Origin: Deltaproteobacteria bacterium HGW-Deltaproteobacteria-8
Lineage (GTDB): Bacteria; Desulfobacterota; Desulfovibrionia; Desulfovibrionales; Desulfovibrionaceae
Direction: 5' to 3'
DNA length: 64,000 nucleotides
Assembly (NCBI GenBank): GCA_002840405.1
Contig: PHAR01000002.1
Location: forward strand, 62,001 to 126,000
Numbering within the stretch: the first letter of the stretch is position 1; the number at the start of each line of letters is the position of its first letter. Shown here in pieces: positions 1 through 62,276 of the stretch. The notes beneath the pieces were generated by a model. The model was not told where the DNA came from. It was given only the letters and a program-made list of their open reading frames with translations, and ran no database searches. A program made the position numbers and the translations under genes.

Positions 1-213
1 GAGTTCTGGGGCGGGTTCCTGGGCACCGAGGAAGTGAACGTGCTGCTCATCTCGGGCAAGGGCGTGTACATCAAGAACAGCGCGGGCATGACCGAAATTT
101 TGAAGCCGCTGGAGGGCGTGACCCTGCGCACGGCCACTGCGCCGCCCCCGGCCCCGACCCTGTGGAGCCCGGACAAGCGCGCGCGGGCGTTCAAGACCGT
201 GGAGTTCGACTAG
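1..213 (+). CDS. C-terminal end of an unknown protein (partial)
   Basis: An open frame enters from the left edge and ends with TAG at 211-213, giving the last 70 residues of a protein. The visible part has a short beta-rich stretch (VNVLLISGKGVYIKN), a Pro/Ala segment (ATAPPPAPTLW) and a charged end (AFKTVEFD). I do not recognise a family. Its stop overlaps the stop of the convergent ABC permease within a shared CTAG at 210-213. High G+C and normal codon choice support it being real. Function cannot be assigned from this fragment. Confidence 0.6.
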   Translation, partial: EFWGGFLGTEEVNVLLISGKGVYIKNSAGMTEILKPLEGVTLRTATAPPPAPTLWSPDKRARAFKTVEFD

Positions 214-1349
214 TCCAGCGTCTTCCGGTAGCGCCGCATGCCCACGCTGATGACCACCACCAGGAACAGGGCGATGGGCCAGACGTGGGTCAGGGATTCC
301 AGCGCGCCGTTGCCCTTGAGCAGGATGCCGCGCACCAGCCGCAAATAGTGCGTCAGCGGCAGCACCGAGCCGATGGTCTGCGCCCATCCCGGCATGCCCC
401 GGAACGGGAACATGAACCCGGACAAGAGCAGCGACGGCAGGAAGAAGAACACGCTCATCTGCACTGCCTGCAGCTGATTTTTGGCGATGGTCGAGAGCGT
501 CACCCCGACGCTTAAGTTGGCCGCGATGAACACCAGGGACAGCACGAACACCGCCAGGACGCTGCCGCGCAGGGGCACCCCGAACAGGAACTTCGCCGCC
601 AGGACGATCAGCGTCATCTGGATGTAGCCCACCAGGATATACGGGATGATCTTGCCCAGCATGACCTCCAGCGGCCGCACCGGCGTGGACAAGAGGTTCT
701 CCATGGTGCCGCGCTCCCTCTCTCGTGTAATGGCGAGTGAGGTGATCATGGTCAGGGTCAGGGTCAAGATGACGCCCATGAGGCCGGGCACGATGTTGTA
801 CTGGGTCACGGCCTCGGGGTTGTACTCGGCGTGCACGCGCAGGGTTACGGGCGAGGGCGTTGGGACGTAGCCTGCCGAGGCGGGCAGGTCGCGGGCCAGC
901 ACCTGGCTGACCACCTCGCGCATGGCGGCAAGGGCTCCGCTGGTGGCGGCCGGGTCCGTGGCGTCGGCCTCCAGCAGCAGCACCGGCTTTTCCCCGCGCA
1001 ACAGCTTGCGCGAGAAGTCCTCGGGGATGGTCAGCACGAACTGGGTGCGGCCCTCTTTGAGCGCGCTGTCGGCCTCGGCGCGGCTGGCCAGATGCTCGGT
1101 GACCTCGAAGTAGCTGCTGGTCTGCATGCCCGCCACGATGCTGCGCGCATACGGCGAGTTGTCGGCCGAGAGCACGGCCGTGGGCAGGTGGCGCGGGTCG
1201 GAGTTGATGGCGTAGCCGAAGAGGATGAGCTGCATGAGCGGGATGCCGATCATCATGGCAAACGTCACCCGGTCGCGGCGCATCTGGATGAATTCCTTGT
1301 AGACCATGGCCGCGAAGCGCCGGAAGCAGAACACGTTGTTCGCGCTCAT
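210..1349 (-). CDS. ABC-2 type transporter permease (YbhR/YhhJ-like)
   Basis: Predicted 379-aa inner-membrane permease of an ABC-2 exporter. One TM segment lies near residues 25-45 (MMIGIPLMQLILFGYAI), followed by a roughly 150-residue extracytoplasmic domain and about five C-terminal TM segments. The conserved cytoplasmic stretch RERERGTMENLLSTPV before the TM block is typical of the family. The ATG at 1349 overlaps the ATPase stop (ATGA, 4 bp), so the two are translationally coupled; the open frame continues upstream but that part is ATPase DNA out of frame. E. coli ybh-type operons carry two permeases; here I see one, so the transporter may work as a homodimer. Likely substrate is a drug or other hydrophobic compound, by family only. 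Confidence 0.9.
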   Translation of the reverse strand: MSANNVFCFRRFAAMVYKEFIQMRRDRVTFAMMIGIPLMQLILFGYAINSDPRHLPTAVLSADNSPYARSIVAGMQTSSYFEVTEHLASRAEADSALKEGRTQFVLTIPEDFSRKLLRGEKPVLLLEADATDPAATSGALAAMREVVSQVLARDLPASAGYVPTPSPVTLRVHAEYNPEAVTQYNIVPGLMGVILTLTLTMITSLAITRERERGTMENLLSTPVRPLEVMLGKIIPYILVGYIQMTLIVLAAKFLFGVPLRGSVLAVFVLSLVFIAANLSVGVTLSTIAKNQLQAVQMSVFFFLPSLLLSGFMFPFRGMPGWAQTIGSVLPLTHYLRLVRGILLKGNGALESLTHVWPIALFLVVVISVGMRRYRKTLD

Positions 1350-2446
1350 GGCTGGCCGCCTGCCTGGCCGCCTGCCTGAGCCTTCTGGGCGGCCTGGCCG
1401 TTCTGCTTGGCCTGCTGGCCGCGCATGAGGTGGATGAAGACCTCCTCCAGGCTGGTGCGGATGAGCTTCCAGTCGTGCCCGGTCCCTGCCTGGAACGGGG
1501 CGATGGCCCTCTCCAGGGCCTCGGCGTCCTGGCCGCTGACGTGCAGGGTGTTGCCAAAGGCCACCACCTGTTCCACGCCGGGCAGGGGGCGCAGGGCGTC
1601 GGCCAGTTCCGGCAGGTTCGCGCCGGAAACGCTCCAGGTGCAGAGCCCGGCGTGGTCCACGATACCCTCCAGGGTGTCCTGGGCCAGCAGGTCGCCATAG
1701 GCGATGTAGGCCAGGCGGTGGCAGCGCTCGGCCTCGTCCATGTAGTGGGTGCTGATGAGCGCGGTGACGCCCTGGCTGGCCAGCTTGTGCACCTCGTCCC
1801 AGAAGTCGCGCCGCGCGCCAGGGTCCACCCCGGCCGTGGGCTCGTCCAGCAGCAGCAGCTTCGGCCCGTGCAGGGTGCAGGCCGAAAGAGCCAGGCGCTG
1901 CTTCCAGCCGCCGGACAGGCTGCCCGCCAGCTGGTTCGCAAAGCGCGTCATGCCCATGCGCGTGAGGCACTCGTCCACCACCCGCAGGCGGTCGGCCAAG
2001 CCGTACATGCGCGCCATGAAGTCCAGGTTCTCGCGCACGGTCAGGTCCTCGTAGAGGCTGAAGCGCTGGGCCATGTAGCCCACGTGGGGCTTGATCTCGT
2101 CGGCCTGGGTGAGCACGTCGAAGCCCAGGCAGGTGCCGCTTCCGGAGTCGGGCTTGAGCAGCCCGCAGAGCATGCGGATGAAGGTGGTCTTGCCCGAGCC
2201 GTTGGGGCCGAGGAAGCCGTAGATCTCGCCGCGCTTGACGCGCATGGAGAGGTTGTTGACCACGACCTTGCCGTCAAAGCTCTTGGTCAGGCCGGAGACG
2301 TCGATGACGTAGTCGGCCTCGTTGGCGGAAGCGTCATTTGCGGAAGTATCGTTAACAGGAGCTTTCGGGGCGTCGGCGTCGGCAGGGCCGTTGTGGAGGC
2401 TGTGGCCGACGCTGTGGCCGGTGCTGTTGTCCGTGTCCGCGCCCAC
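1346..2446 (-). CDS. ABC exporter ATPase (YbhF-like)
   Basis: A 366-aa ATP-binding subunit. Walker A is GPNGSGKTT, the signature motif is LSGGWKQRL, Walker B is LLLLDEPTAGVD, and the switch His is in ISTHYMDEAE. Before the ABC domain there is an unusual 45-residue low-complexity N-terminus with a TSANDASANEA repeat, and after it an Ala/Gln/Gly-rich tail (AQKAQAGGQAGGQP). The start is GTG (2444-2446), three bases after the stop of the membrane fusion protein; an internal start is possible, since the N-terminal tail is not conserved-looking. It would power export with the downstream permease. Confidence 0.9.
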   Translation of the reverse strand: MGADTDNSTGHSVGHSLHNGPADADAPKAPVNDTSANDASANEADYVIDVSGLTKSFDGKVVVNNLSMRVKRGEIYGFLGPNGSGKTTFIRMLCGLLKPDSGSGTCLGFDVLTQADEIKPHVGYMAQRFSLYEDLTVRENLDFMARMYGLADRLRVVDECLTRMGMTRFANQLAGSLSGGWKQRLALSACTLHGPKLLLLDEPTAGVDPGARRDFWDEVHKLASQGVTALISTHYMDEAERCHRLAYIAYGDLLAQDTLEGIVDHAGLCTWSVSGANLPELADALRPLPGVEQVVAFGNTLHVSGQDAEALERAIAPFQAGTGHDWKLIRTSLEEVFIHLMRGQQAKQNGQAAQKAQAGGQAGGQP

Positions 2447-2449
2447 GGG

Positions 2450-3466
2450 TTATTTCCCCGCGGGCAGGCTCAACCGCACGTCCACCGGCTGGCCGGGGTG
2501 CAGCAGGGGCGCCTGGTCCGGGCCGGGCTTGGCCTCTACCATGAACACCAGCTTGGCGCGGTTGTCGCTGGAGTAGAGGATGGGCGGGGTGTACTCGGCC
2601 TGGGCCGAGACGTAGCTGACGCGGACCGGAATGGGTTTGGCCTCGCCGTCGAAGCGCACCTGGGCCTCCTGGCCCATCTGGATGCGGCCCACGGTCTCCT
2701 CGGGCACGAAGAAGCGGACCTTGATGTTCCCAGGGGGCAGGAGCACGGCCACGGCCTTGCCCGCAGGCACCCACTCGCCCAGGGTATACAGGGTGTCGAA
2801 GACCAGCGCGGCGGACGGGGCGGCCTGGGATTTCTGGGCCAGGGTCCAGGCGGCCTGCTCCACGCGGCCCTTGGCGGCCTCCACCTCGGCCTGGGCCGCA
2901 GAGATCTCGTCCGAGCGCCCGCCGAGCTTGGCGGTGGAAAGGTTGGCGGACATCTCGCGCACCTGCTGGGCCTTGACGTCGTAGTCCGCCCGCGCCCGGT
3001 CCATCTCCTCGGCGGAGATGGTGCGCTCGGCAAAGAGCTTCTCGCGGCGCTTGAACTCGGTTTCGGCAAGCCGCAGGGCGGTGCTGGCCTGGCCCAGGCG
3101 CGCACTGACGGCCTTCAGTTCCGTGGGCCGCTGTCCCTTCTGCAGGTTGGCCAGCTTGTCGGCAGCCTGCTTCAGGGCTTGGGTGGCCACGGCCAGGGCC
3201 GCGCGCTCAAAGTCCTGCTCCAGCACGAACAGCGGCGCACCGGCCTTGACCTCCTGGCCCCGGTGCACGCGCAGCTCGGAGAGCGCCCCGGACACGGGCG
3301 AGGCCACGTGCACGTACTCGGCCTCCACATAGCCCTGGAAGACCTTGGCCCCGTCCTGGCTGAAGCGTCGCAGGCCGTATGCCGCCACGCCCAGCAGCAG
3401 CAGGGCCAGCAGCGCCAGGCGGGCCTTGGCCGGAATCCGTTGCAGGAGGTGTACAGGGTTCTGCAT
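2450..3466 (-). CDS. HlyD-family membrane fusion protein of an ABC exporter
   Basis: A 338-aa periplasmic adaptor. An N-terminal anchor (ARLALLALLLLGVAAYGL) is followed by the first lipoyl half (VASPVSGALSELRVHRGQEV), a long coiled-coil hairpin around residues 85-200, and the second half with beta-barrel (APSAALVFDTLYTLGEWVPAG). It resembles YbhG/YhiI adaptors that pair with an ABC-2 exporter. It is the first gene of a tight three-gene operon (3 bp to the ATPase, then a 4-bp overlap). A 16-bp palindrome lies 33 bp upstream of the ATG and may be the operator. No outer-membrane TolC gene is adjacent. Confidence 0.9.
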   Translation of the reverse strand: MQNPVHLLQRIPAKARLALLALLLLGVAAYGLRRFSQDGAKVFQGYVEAEYVHVASPVSGALSELRVHRGQEVKAGAPLFVLEQDFERAALAVATQALKQAADKLANLQKGQRPTELKAVSARLGQASTALRLAETEFKRREKLFAERTISAEEMDRARADYDVKAQQVREMSANLSTAKLGGRSDEISAAQAEVEAAKGRVEQAAWTLAQKSQAAPSAALVFDTLYTLGEWVPAGKAVAVLLPPGNIKVRFFVPEETVGRIQMGQEAQVRFDGEAKPIPVRVSYVSAQAEYTPPILYSSDNRAKLVFMVEAKPGPDQAPLLHPGQPVDVRLSLPAGK

Positions 3467-3516: not shown

Positions 3517-3554
3517 GTTGGGGAGGATTACGCCCGGAGCGAATCCTCCCCAAC
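3517..3554 (-). terminator. Strong hairpin after cbpB
   Basis: A 13-bp perfect stem (3517-3529 with 3542-3554) around a 12-nt loop sits 37 bp past the cbpB stop on the minus strand. The downstream U-run is weak (CTTTC), so termination may be partial. It separates the riboswitch-peptide unit from the exporter operon. Confidence 0.5.
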
Positions 3555-3590: not shown

Positions 3591-5000
3591 TCAGGGACGG
3601 TTCACATCGAAGACTGTCTGGGCGTCCTTGTCCCAGCCGTCGAAGAGGAAGGCGTCGGCCTTCTTGTCCGCCAGCAGCCGGAAGGCGTAGCGCACCTGCT
3701 CCTCGTAGAAGGTGCAGAAGGCGCCCTTCTGGTCCATGCCGCCGTTCATCTCCTGGGCCTCGGCAGGGCAGGGCGAGCCGCAGAAGTGCCGGATGGCGCA
3801 GCTCCGGCAGGACGCGATGTCCTCGACCTTGCGTCCGGTGACGCGCTTAAAGGCCGGGGACACCAGCACCTCGTCCAGGCTGTCGGTGAACAGGTTGCCG
3901 CCGTTGTAGTCCGGCAGGCCGATGAATTCGCTGCAGGGGAACAGGCCGCCGTCCGGGCCCAGGGCGAAGAAGCAGCGTCCGCCGCCGCAGGGCGAGATGT
4001 CGCACATGAGCCGCCGGGCCGTGGGCGCCACGATGGACAGCAGGATGTTGGCGAAGTTCGCCACCACCAGCTTGCGCCCGGTCTTCTGGTACAGCTCATA
4101 GGAGCGGTCCAGGGCGGCGGTGAAGTACTTGGCGGCCACGGCCTCGTCCGGCTTGAGGTCCCTGGACGCGGGCATGGTGCAGCGCAGGATGTTCAGCATG
4201 GTCACCGGCACCTCGTGCTGGTGGAAGAAGTCCACCAGCTGGGGCAGGGTGCGCATGTTCTCCTTGGTCACTGTGCAGATGACGTTGTACAGCGGGTAGC
4301 CCTTCAGGCGCTCCATGGCCTTGACCACGACGTCGTACACGCCCTTGCCGCCCCAGGTGGTCCGGGTGCGGTCAGCGATGCGCGCCGTGGCCGCGTCCAG
4401 CGACAGGCCGATGCCGACCTTGTGGCTGGTCAGAAAGTCGATGGCCGACTCGTCCAGGTTGGTGGCGTTGGTCTGCACGCCGAAGCTGAAGTCCCCGGCA
4501 TAGCGTTCGATGCCCGCAAAGACCGCGTCGCGGTTGAGCAGCGGCTCGGCCCCGTGGAACACGATCTGCGGCAGGCGGCCTGCGGGAAGGTGCGCGCCGA
4601 ACCAGTCCTTGAGCCGGGCCAGGGCATCCAGCAGGCGCTCGGCCGGCATGTGCTCGCCTGTGCGGCGCATCTCGGTGGGGATGTAGCAGTAGCCGCAGTT
4701 CAGGTTGCAGCGCGCCGTGGGGTTGAAATACACAGCAGAGGGCGTCAGGTTGAAGCGCAGGTCGTGCATCTCCTTGGCAAAGGCCGCGGAGTTGGCCTGG
4801 ACCGAGTCCAGGAAGCGCCGGGAGCCAAGGGTCTTGGCCAGGGCGCCCTTGCGCACCAGGGACCAGAAGGCCGTGTCCGGGTCGATGAGCGCCAGGTGCG
4901 TGTCGTGGCCGATGTCCACGGGGATCAGCCGCGGGCCGTCGCCGGTGTTGGCGAAGCGGCCCGCCTGGGCCGCCCCGCCGGTGGCTCTTTTCACCGTCAT
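3591..5000 (-). CDS. cbpB: Peptide-modifying radical SAM/SPASM enzyme, CbpB type
   Basis: A 469-aa radical SAM protein. The cluster motif CNLNCGYC places the three SAM-cluster cysteines at residues 98, 102 and 105 (CX3CX2C). The C-terminal third holds a SPASM-like cysteine set: CDISPCGGGRC, then LFPCSEFIG, then CRSCAIRHFCGSPC. SPASM enzymes commonly modify peptide side chains. The gene starts 2 bp after the 49-aa peptide gene, so the peptide is the expected substrate. ATG at 5000 is chosen because the frame upstream runs through the peptide gene, terminator and riboswitch in the wrong frame. I recall the NCBI families CbpA/CbpB (a modified peptide with its rSAM enzyme, often behind a cobalamin riboswitch); the arrangement here fits exactly, but the chemistry is unknown. 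Confidence 0.85.
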   Translation of the reverse strand: MTVKRATGGAAQAGRFANTGDGPRLIPVDIGHDTHLALIDPDTAFWSLVRKGALAKTLGSRRFLDSVQANSAAFAKEMHDLRFNLTPSAVYFNPTARCNLNCGYCYIPTEMRRTGEHMPAERLLDALARLKDWFGAHLPAGRLPQIVFHGAEPLLNRDAVFAGIERYAGDFSFGVQTNATNLDESAIDFLTSHKVGIGLSLDAATARIADRTRTTWGGKGVYDVVVKAMERLKGYPLYNVICTVTKENMRTLPQLVDFFHQHEVPVTMLNILRCTMPASRDLKPDEAVAAKYFTAALDRSYELYQKTGRKLVVANFANILLSIVAPTARRLMCDISPCGGGRCFFALGPDGGLFPCSEFIGLPDYNGGNLFTDSLDEVLVSPAFKRVTGRKVEDIASCRSCAIRHFCGSPCPAEAQEMNGGMDQKGAFCTFYEEQVRYAFRLLADKKADAFLFDGWDKDAQTVFDVNRP

Positions 5001-5002
5001 GG

Positions 5003-5152
5003 TTAGTGCTTCGCCTTTTCGCTGATAAGGATGTAGTGTGACAGGCCGGTGCCTTCGGCCGAGCATTTCTTGCGGAAGGCGATGATGTCCTTGTCCTTGG
5101 GCTGGCGGGGCTTCTTCTGCGTGTCCATCGTCGTAGCGGGCTTCGTGTCCAT
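5003..5152 (-). CDS. cbpA: Small peptide, predicted RiPP precursor CbpA
   Basis: A 49-aa peptide with a strong Shine-Dalgarno (AAGGAGGTCACACATG). The N-terminal half is hydrophilic and contains a partial repeat (MDTKPATT then MDTQKKP); the C-terminal half, with KDIIAFRKKCSAEGTG and LSHYILIS, is the likely recognised or modified region. It has one Cys and no Gly-Gly leader cleavage site or signal peptide that I can see. It lies directly between a cobalamin riboswitch with terminator and the radical SAM gene. A second in-frame ATG eight codons in would give a shorter peptide. An upstream in-frame ATG lies within the terminator hairpin and is unlikely. Confidence 0.8.
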   Translation of the reverse strand: MDTKPATTMDTQKKPRQPKDKDIIAFRKKCSAEGTGLSHYILISEKAKH

Positions 5153-5172
5153 GTGTGACCTCCTTGAGGGTG

Positions 5173-5219
5173 AAAAAAAAGGATTCCGGCTGCCCCATAC
5201 AGAGCAGCCGGAATCCTTT
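5173..5219 (-). terminator. Intrinsic terminator forming the riboswitch expression platform
   Basis: A 16-bp perfect stem (5178-5193 with 5204-5219), 10-nt loop, followed on the minus strand by eight U residues (5173-5180). It lies after the cobalamin aptamer and before the cbpA ribosome binding site. This is the layout of a transcription-attenuating OFF riboswitch: cobalamin bound, transcription ends; cobalamin low, cbpA-cbpB is read. Confidence 0.85.
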
Positions 5220-5249
5220 GCCATCGGACTCCACGGGATACAATCGAAG

Positions 5250-5412
5250 CAACAGATCTTCTGACTTCCGGATCATTCGCCTGTGCGCGACCTTCCCCCC
5301 AGGTTGTGACCTGAAAGTGGCGGCGGTTGCCTTGCGCACGGCGTCCCCGGTTACAGCGGCGGGACCGTCACGGACTTGCACCGTGTTCTGAGATGTTGCC
5401 TCAACGAATGAA
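5250..5412 (-). ncRNA. Cobalamin riboswitch
   Basis: On the minus strand the conserved core reads GGTGCAAGTCCGTGACGGTC, then CCCGCCGCTGTAACCGGGG, then a GGGAAGG segment, ending in AAGTCAGAAGATCTG. These match the B12-box features of the cobalamin riboswitch (GGUGNAAGUCC, GCNGUNA, and the AGUCAGAAGAYCUG end). It heads the cbpA-cbpB unit with an intrinsic terminator downstream. The exact 5' limit is approximate. Confidence 0.9.
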
Positions 5413-5516
5413 AACTTACAGGAAGAGGGCTTGAACCGTCAAGCCTTGAGCCGTCCCTCGGATCACTGGCCGGGCTCGACCAGCGCGCCCTTGATCCGGT
5501 CTCAGCGGGCCAAGCC

Positions 5517-6422
5517 TCAGGGCTCTGGCGGCGATGCGGGCTCGCGGATGTGCTCGACGAGCTCGCGGATGTGCAGGGGCTGGTTGGCGAAGTCGCGCAC
5601 GCAGAGCATGAGCTGGCGCGTGGCCCAGCTGTCCGTGAGCCGCACGATGTGCAGGCTCATGGACTTCTTGCAGTGTACGGCCGCGGTCTCCGGGATCACG
5701 GCGATGCCCACGTTGTCCTGCACCAGCCGGGCGGAGGCCATAAAGCCGCGCAGGCGCACCCGGTAGTTGATGCGCTTGCCCACGCGGCTGGCGTGGGCCT
5801 CCAGGTATTTCTGGATGGAGCTGCCCTCGGCCAGGCCCACGAAGTCGTAGTCCAGGGTTTCGGCAAAGCTTACGGAGCGCTTGGCGGCCAGTGGGTGTTT
5901 GGGCGAGACCACCAGCACCAGCTGAAGCGTGCGGAAGGGGAAGGTCTGCAGGTTGCCTAACACCTCGGAGCTTTTGGGCACCACGCCCACGTCGGCCTTG
6001 TCCTCCAGCAGGTCCTGCATGATCTCGGTGCTCAGGCGTTCGTGCACGTCGATGCCCACGTTGGGGTGCGCGAGGAGGTAGGAGCTCAGGATCTCAGGCA
6101 GAAACTCGGTGATGGTGGACGTGTTGCACAGGAGGCGCACGTGGCCCTTGAGGCCCTGGCCGTACTCGCTCACGTCGCCCACCATGCGCTCCCACTCCTG
6201 CATGATGTTGTGGGCATGGCGCATGAGGGCGAAGCCCGCCTCTGTGGGCGCCACGCCGCGGCGTCCGCGCGTCAAGAGCGGCACGCCGAGGGTGTCCTCC
6301 ATGTTGCGGATGCGCGCGCTGGCCGAGGCCAAGGCCATGAAGGCGCGGTCGGCCCCGCCGGTGATGCTGCCGCTCTCCACCACATGCAGGAACAGTCGTA
6401 AGTCTGTGAGATCAAAGGACAT
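5517..6422 (-). CDS. LysR-family transcriptional regulator
   Basis: A 301-aa regulator with an N-terminal winged helix-turn-helix (DLRLFLHVVESGSITGGADR, then SARIRNMEDTLGVPLLTR) and a C-terminal periplasmic-binding-like effector domain from about residue 90 (GHVRLLCNTSTITEFLPEI). The ATG at 6422 is used because GGGAG lies 7 bp upstream and it gives the usual length; 33 extra in-frame residues upstream look non-coding. It is divergent from the lipoprotein gene at 6637 and convergent with nothing metabolic, so its target is unclear. Substitution GADRAFMALASASARI in place of the usual AA..LH.SQPA.S suggests a somewhat divergent subgroup. Confidence 0.9.
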   Translation of the reverse strand: MSFDLTDLRLFLHVVESGSITGGADRAFMALASASARIRNMEDTLGVPLLTRGRRGVAPTEAGFALMRHAHNIMQEWERMVGDVSEYGQGLKGHVRLLCNTSTITEFLPEILSSYLLAHPNVGIDVHERLSTEIMQDLLEDKADVGVVPKSSEVLGNLQTFPFRTLQLVLVVSPKHPLAAKRSVSFAETLDYDFVGLAEGSSIQKYLEAHASRVGKRINYRVRLRGFMASARLVQDNVGIAVIPETAAVHCKKSMSLHIVRLTDSWATRQLMLCVRDFANQPLHIRELVEHIREPASPPEP

Positions 6423-61115: not shown

Positions 61116-62276
61116 ATGGGCCAGAAGAGTGGCGTGAGTGGGATCCTGGAGATGCGCAAGCTGCTGCTCCGGGCAGGTTTGGGTGAGAGCACCCTGGAGG
61201 AGCAGTTGGGCGAGGGCCAACAGGCGTATGCCGACGCCTTGTACCTCTTGACCCGCATGCGTTTCACCCCGGAAGAATCGTGCGGCTACTGGAGCGAGAT
61301 CCTCCAGCACATGGAGAGCCTGAACCTGACTCTGGGCCGGGACGTGGGCCTGCGCCTGGCCTTGTGCGACTATTTCATGAACCTGCACCCCCGGATGCGG
61401 GAGCCGGTCATCGTGGAGGTGCAGGTACTTCTGCAGAAGGAGCGGAGCGCTCTGGTGGACGAACTCACCGGGCTCTACAACCGCCGCTACTTCAACGACG
61501 CCATCCAGCGCGAGGTGGAGCGCTTCAAGCGCTTCGGCCACCGCTTTTCGCTGGTCATGCTCGATGTGGACCACTTCAAGCGCTTCAACGACAGCTATGG
61601 CCATCTGGTGGGCGATGACGCCCTGCAGACCGTGGCCTCGGTCCTGCGCGACACGGCCCGCACCTCAGACCATGTCGTCCGCTACGGCGGCGAGGAGTTC
61701 GCCCTGATCCTGCCGCATACCGACGCAGAACAGGCCCTGGCGGCGTCCGAGCGCTTGCGCCAGGCCATGGAGCGGCGACCCGTGCAGGTGCAGAAGGACC
61801 AGTCTGTGCCGCTGACCATCAGCCTGGGCGCGGCCACCTTTCCCGAGGACGCCATCAACGCCCGTGATCTGGTTGCCCGGTCCGACGAGGCCCTGTACGA
61901 AGCCAAGCGCATCCGCAACAGCGCCTGCTCCTATGCGGAAAAGAACCGTGAGTTTCCGCGCGCGCCCGTGGGTTTGACGGTGCTGTTCCACAGCCCGGAG
62001 CATGAGCCGGAGGCGGTCAGGGTGGTGAACATCAGCTTTGGCGGCCTGCTTTGCCAAACGCCAGCGGCCATTCTGCCCGGCACGCGGGTGGAGGTCGTGC
62101 TGCCCGGGGATTATCCCGGTCAGTCCGGCCTGCGCGTGGGCTGTCGCTCGCTGCGCCTGGAGCGCGACACCGAGAGCGGGCCCTATGAGATCGCGCTGTC
62201 TTTCGAAGGCATCGGCGAGGATGTGCGCCGCGCCCTGGTGCGGCTCGTGGAGCTGGATCAGGGCGTGGACGGCTAG
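61116..62276 (+). CDS. Diguanylate cyclase with C-terminal PilZ domain
   Basis: A 386-aa protein. Residues 1-105 are a helical N-terminal region without TM segments. The GGDEF domain (about 112-275) has the active-site GGEEF at 191-195 and an inhibitory-site RTSD at 182-185, five residues upstream as expected. A PilZ domain follows: REFPR at 278-282 (RxxxR) and NISFGG at 305-310 ([DN]xSxxG). It should make c-di-GMP and also bind it. RBS GGAGG before the ATG. Confidence 0.92.
   Translation: MGQKSGVSGILEMRKLLLRAGLGESTLEEQLGEGQQAYADALYLLTRMRFTPEESCGYWSEILQHMESLNLTLGRDVGLRLALCDYFMNLHPRMREPVIVEVQVLLQKERSALVDELTGLYNRRYFNDAIQREVERFKRFGHRFSLVMLDVDHFKRFNDSYGHLVGDDALQTVASVLRDTARTSDHVVRYGGEEFALILPHTDAEQALAASERLRQAMERRPVQVQKDQSVPLTISLGAATFPEDAINARDLVARSDEALYEAKRIRNSACSYAEKNREFPRAPVGLTVLFHSPEHEPEAVRVVNISFGGLLCQTPAAILPGTRVEVVLPGDYPGQSGLRVGCRSLRLERDTESGPYEIALSFEGIGEDVRRALVRLVELDQGVDG

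Follow-up and report, generated by a model that had tools for sequence, protein, structure and literature searches.

Organization of the locus

The DNA analysed, here called the window, is 64,000 nt long and spans positions 62,001–126,000 (forward strand) of contig PHAR01000002.1 from Deltaproteobacteria bacterium HGW-Deltaproteobacteria-8 (assembly GCA_002840405.1). Its minus strand carries, in this order, a cobalamin riboswitch, a strong terminator, a gene for a 49-aa peptide (cbpA) and a gene for a SPASM radical SAM enzyme (cbpB) that begins 2 bp further on (Table 1). An initial annotation had proposed the same arrangement, and matches to RF00174, TIGR04164 and TIGR04163 confirmed it throughout. 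The aptamer exceeds the gathering score of 31.5, and nothing else in the window reaches an Rfam gathering threshold; in the close relatives L004, L005 and L006 the aptamer region can be aligned over its whole length. The terminator folds with a z-score of −6.1, and none of 200 shuffled sequences was equally stable. It had been described as 16 bp with eight U; the run of eight T is there, but the scan gives 19 pairs. In one relative (L024) the hairpin is retained with a paired change of A-T to G-C; the riboswitch of this relative went undetected owing to N letters in part of its sequence. The stretch with the hairpin 3′ of cbpB has a folding z-score of −3.7, and the scan gave no terminator score there.

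Table 1. Features of the cbpAB region (window coordinates)
Feature	Position	Strand	Basis
Cobalamin riboswitch aptamer (RF00174)	5234–5415	−	66.8 bits, E 2.6e-14
Intrinsic terminator, presumed riboswitch expression platform	5178–5219	−	19 pairs (scan) and U tract
Shine-Dalgarno sequence AAGGAGG of cbpA	5159–5165	−	Direct sequence reading
cbpA, 49-aa precursor peptide	5003–5152	−	TIGR04164, 44.2 bits (cut-off 35)
CbpA conserved unit, residues I23–I43, with Cys30 and His39	5024–5086	−	Table of 73 distinct cores
cbpB, SPASM radical SAM enzyme, 469 aa, presumed CbpA maturase	3591–5000	−	TIGR04163, PF04055, PF13186
Radical SAM motif CxxxCxYC (C98, C102, C105)	4686–4709	−	Invariant in 68/68 aligned CbpB
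SPASM cysteines C338...C356, C398-x2-C401-x5-C407-x3-C411, C429	3714–3989	−	Invariant in 68/68 aligned CbpB
GC-rich hairpin 3′ of cbpB, possible transcript end; U tract weak	3517–3554	−	
HlyD-family adaptor, neighbour outside the conserved cassette	2450–3466	−	Cluster in window and 4/80 loci

Conservation of CbpA and CbpB

The locus belongs to the named CbpA/CbpB family. Both proteins score above the NCBIfam equivalog cut-offs, CbpA through a match to residues 24–46 and CbpB with 686.3 bits against a cut-off of 375, and the family names given in the initial annotation were correct. We found no difference from the NCBIfam pair, which has the same gene order, and record NZ_CP073765.1 annotates an adjacent pair under these names. 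As the annotation had also said, there is no established product: the open-access literature searched held no description of a product or role for CbpA/CbpB. The family was already named by NCBI; what is new here are the comparative counts on the core, the switch, cob linkage and cbiD.

The comparison covered the best 80 of 420 confirmed relatives, hence those closest to the window, with genes called by a home-made script. A CbpA core lies 5′ of cbpB in 79 of these 80 loci; in the remaining one (L067) the contig starts inside the core. Absence of the peptide next to the enzyme in related genomes, which the initial annotation had named as a refuting observation, was thus not what the relatives showed. 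The core pattern matched in all 79, tblastn with the window peptide pointed to the same places, and the spacing to cbpB exceeds 150 nt in 5 of them. Among the 73 distinct cores of this sample, [VI]IAxRKxCxxxGxGLSHY is near-constant and the His is invariant, a constancy to which the search itself contributes, these positions being fixed in the pattern used. The window peptide has a single Cys and a single His, and one Cys only is found in 72 of the best 80 CbpA; the one-Cys peptide with a conserved core noted initially was therefore borne out. The one invariant Cys is compatible with a Cys thioether as in ranthipeptide and sactipeptide precursors. Near-identical cores occur in hosts labelled with 12 phyla in the same sample.

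The general SPASM cysteine pattern is CX3CX2C + CX9-15GX4C / CX2CX5CX3C / C. It is complete in CbpB and invariant in an alignment of 68 sequences (the window and 67 of the 80 loci). The best PDB matches to CbpB in both sequence and fold were CteB (5wgg/5why), anSMEcpe and ChlB, with CteB as the best fold match. Radical SAM and SPASM domains are shared with these enzymes, but CbpB is only 17–21% identical to them in the fold alignments, and the single Cys of most CbpA peptides (72 of the best 80) sets the system apart. The next-best NCBIfam models were those of the maturases PapB (ranthipeptide, 124 bits) and DynA (dynobactin, 126 bits), whose curated cut-offs of 340 and 450 CbpB falls far short of.

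The cobalamin riboswitch in related loci

Among the best 80 of 420 relatives, 72 loci could be judged for the presence of a switch, and 60 of these have their own cobalamin riboswitch. The 60 comprise 59 recognized by position (45 with the motif in place and 14 confirmed directly) and L064. Twelve loci were scanned and had none, and eight of these lie within, or at the 3′ end of, co-directional runs of cob genes, so that 68 of the 72 have either a switch or a cob-gene run. In L048 and L077 this cob run is itself headed by a switch. In L018, L054, L058 and L082, neither a switch nor cob genes were found in the available stretch. A terminator-like element stands between riboswitch and cbpA in 56 of the 60 loci, as compared with a mean of 15.8 for shuffled sequences.

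From this anatomy, corrinoid binding would very probably favour the terminator, and cbpAB would be transcribed when corrinoid is scarce; the initial proposal that the peptide is made when cobalamin is scarce agrees with this prediction. The genome has two other cobalamin switches, one preceding a CbiK-like chelatase with a BtuC-like permease and the other preceding cobT.

Linkage to corrinoid genes and hosts

Within the best 80 of 420, 15 of 43 long loci have cob genes nearby, as against none of 36 recA control loci (p 2.9e-5), by a strict count that leaves out L023 and L081, which have a CobD-like match only, and L025, which has only a CbiH/CbiF match, possibly a siroheme-type methyltransferase. 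The raw counts for the same sample were 18 of 43 and 2 of 36 (p 2.0e-4), both control matches also being CobD-like only. The 14 cob baits were drawn from these loci; eight were checked by NCBIfam, Pfam matches in neighbouring genes agreed with the names CbiX and CbiB, and the remaining baits were named by eye. The control was unpaired: a search of 47 of the 80 genomes located recA in 42, and 40 regions were retrieved.

The gene directly 3′ of cbpB is cbiX in four and cbiM in two of the best 80 loci. Seven of the operon-type loci fall within one group of 14 rows in the tree, and these cbiX and cbiM neighbours are therefore hardly independent. The tree gave 13 changes for cob linkage, a figure inflated since loci on short contigs were counted as unlinked.

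When near-complete genomes from the window's phylum were compared, cbiD was found in 14 of 14 CbpB-positive and in 24 of 41 CbpB-negative genomes, the latter hand-picked from about 144 and kinship being ignored. Two of the 14 positives (G140 and G220) share their gene coordinates with two genomes from the set of 80 loci. The distribution of CbiM does not follow that of CbpB (2 of 14 positives against 5 of 24 cbiD-bearing negatives; 2 against 2 above the cut-off), and its co-occurrence was therefore rejected as support for cobalt supply.

Among the best 80 of 420 hosts, 58 have at least one of the ring markers cbiD and cbiH. Of the 22 with neither, 14 carry cobQ and 5 show none of the four markers sought, a count confounded by gaps in MAGs.

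Proposed role of CbpA

The counts extend the statement that the cassette has a B12 switch to the statement that it belongs to corrinoid production, since 68 of 72 judgeable loci have a switch or a cob run, cob linkage exceeds the control and cbiD is present in all near-complete CbpB-bearing genomes tested in the window's phylum. CbpB is likely to modify CbpA within the unit VIAxRKxCxxxGTGLSHYILM; the probable site is at or close to the invariant Cys, the Gly-x-Gly or the His-Tyr. A structure model suggests VIAxRK as a possible recognition strand. Our best reading is that the product is an intracellular peptide in the service of corrinoid production. The cassette has regulation, gene clusters and hosts in common with corrinoid synthesis, and on these grounds we give a probability of roughly 0.65 to the view that the product remains intracellular and contributes to corrinoid supply.

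The product might instead be secreted, as a cobalophore, a corrinoid scavenger or a signal, and the initial annotation had suggested a scavenger or signal. Expression predicted to rise under corrinoid scarcity would suit this idea, as would the HlyD adaptor and ABC genes that follow cbpB in the window. Among the best 80 of 420 relatives, however, the downstream adaptor recurs in four loci only, all close relatives, and in the window a hairpin separates it from cbpB. A relative of the same genus (L006) lacks it at this position, although an RND-type adaptor is encoded on the opposite strand upstream of the cassette; HlyD/RND-type adaptors are likewise the next upstream gene, divergently oriented, in L044, L055 and L059, three of these four loci being close relatives. 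Across clades, no exporter, outer-membrane receptor or peptidase recurs beside the cassette in this sample, and a scan of 71 downstream and 61 upstream neighbours showed no receptor or peptidase family more than once. The conserved exporter plus uptake receptor of a secreted metallophore was thus not found in the best 80 loci. Beside the pair there were only HlyD/ABC genes restricted to particular clades and a small number of divergently oriented RND-type adaptors, and a secreted scavenger was rejected; secretion in any of these forms seems unlikely to us. Of the earlier suggestion, the tie to cobalt or cobalamin metabolism is supported and the extracellular role is not.

A B12-sparing cofactor would be a different kind of product. 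Cobalamin riboswitches can control B12-independent isozymes, and both PQQ (PqqA/PqqE) and mycofactocin (MftA/MftC) start with a short precursor peptide and a SPASM enzyme, so that CbpAB might make a peptide-derived redox group that replaces a B12-dependent activity at low corrinoid. The copy in Methylovirgula lies near pqqA, pqqD and pqqE, with no cob genes within 25 kb and no riboswitch within 6 kb by Rfam. The PQQ and mycofactocin systems, however, have extra enzymes and proteases, which are not recurrent beside cbpAB (one plasmid copy is near pqqADE): no family of such accessory maturation genes occurred in at least 2 of the 71 downstream and 61 upstream neighbours, and nothing that could serve as companion enzyme, peptidase or redox partner is widespread beside the cassette. 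Together with the presence of the cassette among corrinoid synthesis genes, this makes a sparing cofactor improbable. It appears very improbable that the product is an antibacterial RiPP, or one of some other unrelated kind, whose genes just happen to be under a B12 switch; sactipeptide and dynobactin maturases are among the SPASM relatives of CbpB, but the core is nearly identical across hosts labelled with 12 phyla, cob linkage exceeds the control and cbiD was found in 14 of 14 near-complete positives.

If the product is intracellular and serves corrinoid production, our leading guess is that it handles cobalt for the early-insertion (CbiK/CbiX) pathway. The modified Cys/His core might bind Co(II) and supply or buffer cobalt for insertion by CbiK/CbiX, a tentative step that is speculation from the conserved potential ligands and the gene position; its function would be the counterpart of that of CobW, the cobalt chaperone of the aerobic B12 pathway (PMC7689651). 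The likeness to CobW would be confined to the role proposed here, that of supplying corrinoid synthesis with cobalt: CobW is a GTPase of late insertion, whereas CbpA is a short peptide, presumably modified, whose gene often accompanies those of early insertion. The whole chain, from a riboswitch-controlled RiPP-type cassette to cobalt supply for CbiK/CbiX, is possible at best. Against the cobalt-insertion guess, CbiM is unlinked, and some hosts seem to have late-pathway genes only. In its fullest form, with CbpA as a radical-SAM-made intracellular chaperone of cobalt (or of a corrinoid intermediate) for early-insertion B12 synthesis, a CobW counterpart in many phyla switched by absence of the end product, the idea is doubtful. 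If it were true, a modified peptide delivering cobalt would be a new role for RiPPs. The role of the cassette can be addressed in cultured environmental hosts, e.g. Aromatoleum.

The product could also act inside the cell on the corrinoid itself, carrying, protecting or ligating late-pathway or salvage intermediates, for instance with its His, constant in the 73 distinct cores, as an axial ligand. The gene cobT is next 3′ in L032, L037 and L062 and is found on the opposite strand, no more than 3.2 kb upstream, in L016, L017, L019 and L057, with back-to-back switches in the last three. In the best 80 of 420 hosts cobQ is more frequent than cbiD (69 against 48), and the 14 hosts with cobQ and neither cbiD nor cbiH are easier to reconcile with salvage or a late-step role than with cobalt insertion; the excess of cobQ may, however, be due to MAG gaps or to divergent ring enzymes, and to our knowledge CbpA has no corrinoid-binding domain or motif. 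We consider such a role conceivable but doubtful.

Mobile spread of the cassette was rejected: the two short patterns used revealed no relatives in viral contigs, and a single record among 72,556 plasmid records carried it at E 1e-80. Tandem copies of the CbpA core were found in one genome.

Organization of the cbpAB cassette in the window

The features of the cassette are collected in the table. They follow each other on the minus strand in the order aptamer, terminator, Shine-Dalgarno sequence, cbpA and cbpB, with cbpB starting 2 bp past cbpA. The layout of aptamer, terminator, peptide and SPASM enzyme given in the initial annotation was thereby retained, while the terminator stem was corrected from 16 to 19 pairs.

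Features of the cbpAB cassette in the window
Feature	Position	Strand	Remarks
RF00174 cobalamin aptamer	5234-5415	-	66.8 bits
Strong intrinsic terminator, stem of 19 pairs	5178-5219	-	between aptamer and peptide gene
Shine-Dalgarno sequence		-	after terminator, before peptide gene
cbpA, 49-aa peptide gene	5003-5152	-	TIGR04164 (CbpA), 44.2 bits (cut-off 35)
cbpB, SPASM radical SAM gene	3591-5000	-	TIGR04163 (CbpB), 686 bits (cut-off 375)

A gene for a LysR-type regulator (5517-6419) lies just upstream on the same strand, ahead of the switch and cbpAB, and is shared with L004, L005 and L024, which are close relatives. After cbpB, a row of HlyD adaptor, ABC ATPase and ABC-2 permease genes (210-3466) resembles a drug-type exporter; the HlyD adaptor downstream of cbpB is conserved in the window's close relatives only. 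An HlyD-type adaptor is found directly downstream in four loci near the window and directly upstream, divergently oriented, in four others. Beyond the gene sets of close relatives, no further widely recurring family was found among 71 downstream and 61 upstream proteins, for which genes were called with our own script.

Most cassettes are preceded by a cobalamin riboswitch

A GTDB-based genome scan yielded 420 confirmed CbpB relatives, the best 80 of which were taken as loci. Their 80 genomes were scanned with RF00174, and matches were assigned to loci by coordinates. By position, 59 of these best 80 loci have a switch ahead of cbpA; 45 of the 59 carry a B12-box-type motif at the same site, and the other 14 were confirmed by a direct Rfam scan. 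L064 brings the total with a switch of their own to 60/80. Seven loci start too near cbpA to be judged (L007, L011, L020, L056, L065, L067 and L069), and L024 was also set aside because part of its stretch reads N. Among the remaining 72 loci, 60 have the switch and 12 lack one at the Rfam gathering score. A terminator-like element is present between switch and cbpA in 56 of the 60, whereas 20 sets of shuffled segments averaged 15.8 of 60. Since switch and terminator-like element precede cbpA, the cassette is predicted to be switched off at high corrinoid levels.

Paired back-to-back switches occur in L017, L019 and L057, one directed towards cbpAB and the other towards an opposite-strand cobT. 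The pair in L019 (7219-7643) separates the cobT-side gene run from cbpAB. The window's genome has two other switches, one before a CbiK-like chelatase and a BtuC-like permease and one before cobT (names read from the translations). At the former (L001, elsewhere in that genome, 1501-3181), the gene after the switch apparently encodes a chelatase of CbiK type that bears an N-terminal signal sequence, and the permease gene comes next.

Association with corrinoid genes

Six of the 12 switchless loci lie inside co-directional corrinoid gene runs (L048, L071, L072, L077, L078 and L083) and two others stand at the 3' end of one (L039 and L066); the runs of L048 and L077 each begin with a cobalamin switch. 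Neither a switch nor a corrinoid gene run was found in L018, L054, L058 and L082. By their own switch (60) or a corrinoid run (8), 68 of the 72 judgeable loci are thus tied to cobalamin.

A neighbourhood search with 16 corrinoid baits found at least one corrinoid gene in 25 of the 80 loci, or in 22 after removal of three doubtful loci. As a control we used recA neighbourhoods (40 regions, 36 of them of at least 12 kb, from as many of the loci's genomes). At that length, corrinoid genes occur at 18/43 loci versus 2/36 control regions (Fisher p = 2.0e-4) and, by strict counts, at 15/43 versus 0/36 (p = 2.9e-5). The gene following cbpB is cbiX in L048, L071, L077 and L078, cbiM in L067 and L083, and cobT in L032, L037 and L062; in four further loci cobT lies at most 3.2 kb upstream of the cassette. 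Mapping linkage onto the CbpB tree takes 13 changes, so that linkage was probably gained or lost repeatedly, although seven of the operon-type loci fall within one tree group of 14 rows.

CbpA and CbpB

CbpA has a median length of 38 aa (range 29-69, by the start rule applied). All 73 distinct cores share Arg(-3), Cys(0), Gly(+4), Gly(+6), Leu(+7) and His(+9), although the search pattern, which matched wherever the contig held the core, had fixed several of these positions beforehand. Ser(+8) is present in 72 of the 73, and position +10 holds Tyr (69 cores) or Phe (4 cores). A single Cys occurs in 72 of the 80 peptides, which come from 79 loci plus the window. The 69-aa CbpA of L073, a Neptunomonas MAG (1148-1351), contains the unit VIAxRKSCSADGxGLSHYILMDK twice in tandem; this duplication of the whole marks it as the putative functional unit.

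CbpB carries the radical SAM CX3CX2C motif and a complete SPASM cysteine set, and Cys274 and Cys333 are also invariant. Its AlphaFold2 model (mean pLDDT 88.6) has three N-terminal strands and two helices ahead of the barrel, a part reminiscent of a RiPP recognition element; Pfam reported no such domain on CbpB. The nearest solved structures are CteB, anSMEcpe and ChlB. In a second model, CbpA was artificially tethered to CbpB through the L014 read-through (best of five, means 72-83). Here CbpA residues 11-20 (DIISVRKSCN) have strand character and a mean pLDDT of 87, and residues 23-69, including GTGLSHY, are below 50. This division suggests that VIAxRK may be the recognition strand and C...GTGLSHY the part acted upon.

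Hosts and proposed role

CbpB was above the cut-off in 16 of 198 genomes sampled from the window's phylum (Desulfobacterota). We compared 14 positives of at least 90% completeness with 41 near-complete negatives chosen by hand. All 14 positives have cbiD and cobQ, versus 24/41 (p = 0.0026) and 28/41 (p = 0.024) negatives, respectively; these values are optimistic, as related genomes are not independent. A link of CbpB to the cobalt importer CbiM was unsupported (2/14 positives, 5/24 cbiD-bearing negatives).

Of the genomes of the 80 loci, mostly MAGs, 69 have cobQ (68 above the cut-off for it), 48 have cbiD, and 58 have at least one of cbiD and cbiH/cobJ. The other 22 include 14 with cobQ, and none of cobQ, cbiD, cbiH and cobS was found in five genomes (G038, G047, G058, G064 and G066), of which G064 nevertheless has cbiM and cbiQ beside cbpB. 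The early-pathway reading therefore has a real class of exceptions, hosts that apparently keep the late steps only.

Regulation, gene position and host range argue that the cassette product would serve corrinoid supply, and it may act inside the cell, since export, uptake and peptidase genes do not recur. The job we favour is cobalt handling by matured CbpA for the early pathway, in view of the peptide's conserved Cys and His residues and of the neighbouring chelatase and importer genes; the late-step-only hosts hold this tentative reading to a probability of about 0.3. According to PMC7689651, CobW supplies cobalt in the aerobic pathway and most class II chelatases are apparently without metal specificity. 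An early-pathway cobalt helper would therefore fill a gap. We recognised no paper describing the CbpA/CbpB pair among the matches listed in the open-access literature, judged by titles and abstract beginnings.

Distribution

In 79 of the best 80 loci, cbpB is preceded by a CbpA core; in L067 the contig starts within the peptide and the final 11 residues remain. Identity to the window's CbpB is 58-90% (67 aligned loci). Host labels comprise 12 phyla, and the tree needs 30 label changes where 11 is the minimum possible, which suggests transfer, although bin labels may account for part. A scan of viral contigs with two short patterns found no relative. One plasmid, of Methylovirgula sp. HY1 (NZ_CP073765.1), has the pair, annotated there as cbpA and cbpB, with no Rfam match in the 6 kb around it; pqqA, pqqD and pqqE are nearby (L124, 11870-16819). 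The cbpA-cbpB gap exceeds 150 nt in five loci (L063, L064, L066, L071 and L077), and the unusually long gap of L064 contains an Acido-Lenti-1 RNA on the opposite strand (RF01687, 46.2 bits, 2920-2964).
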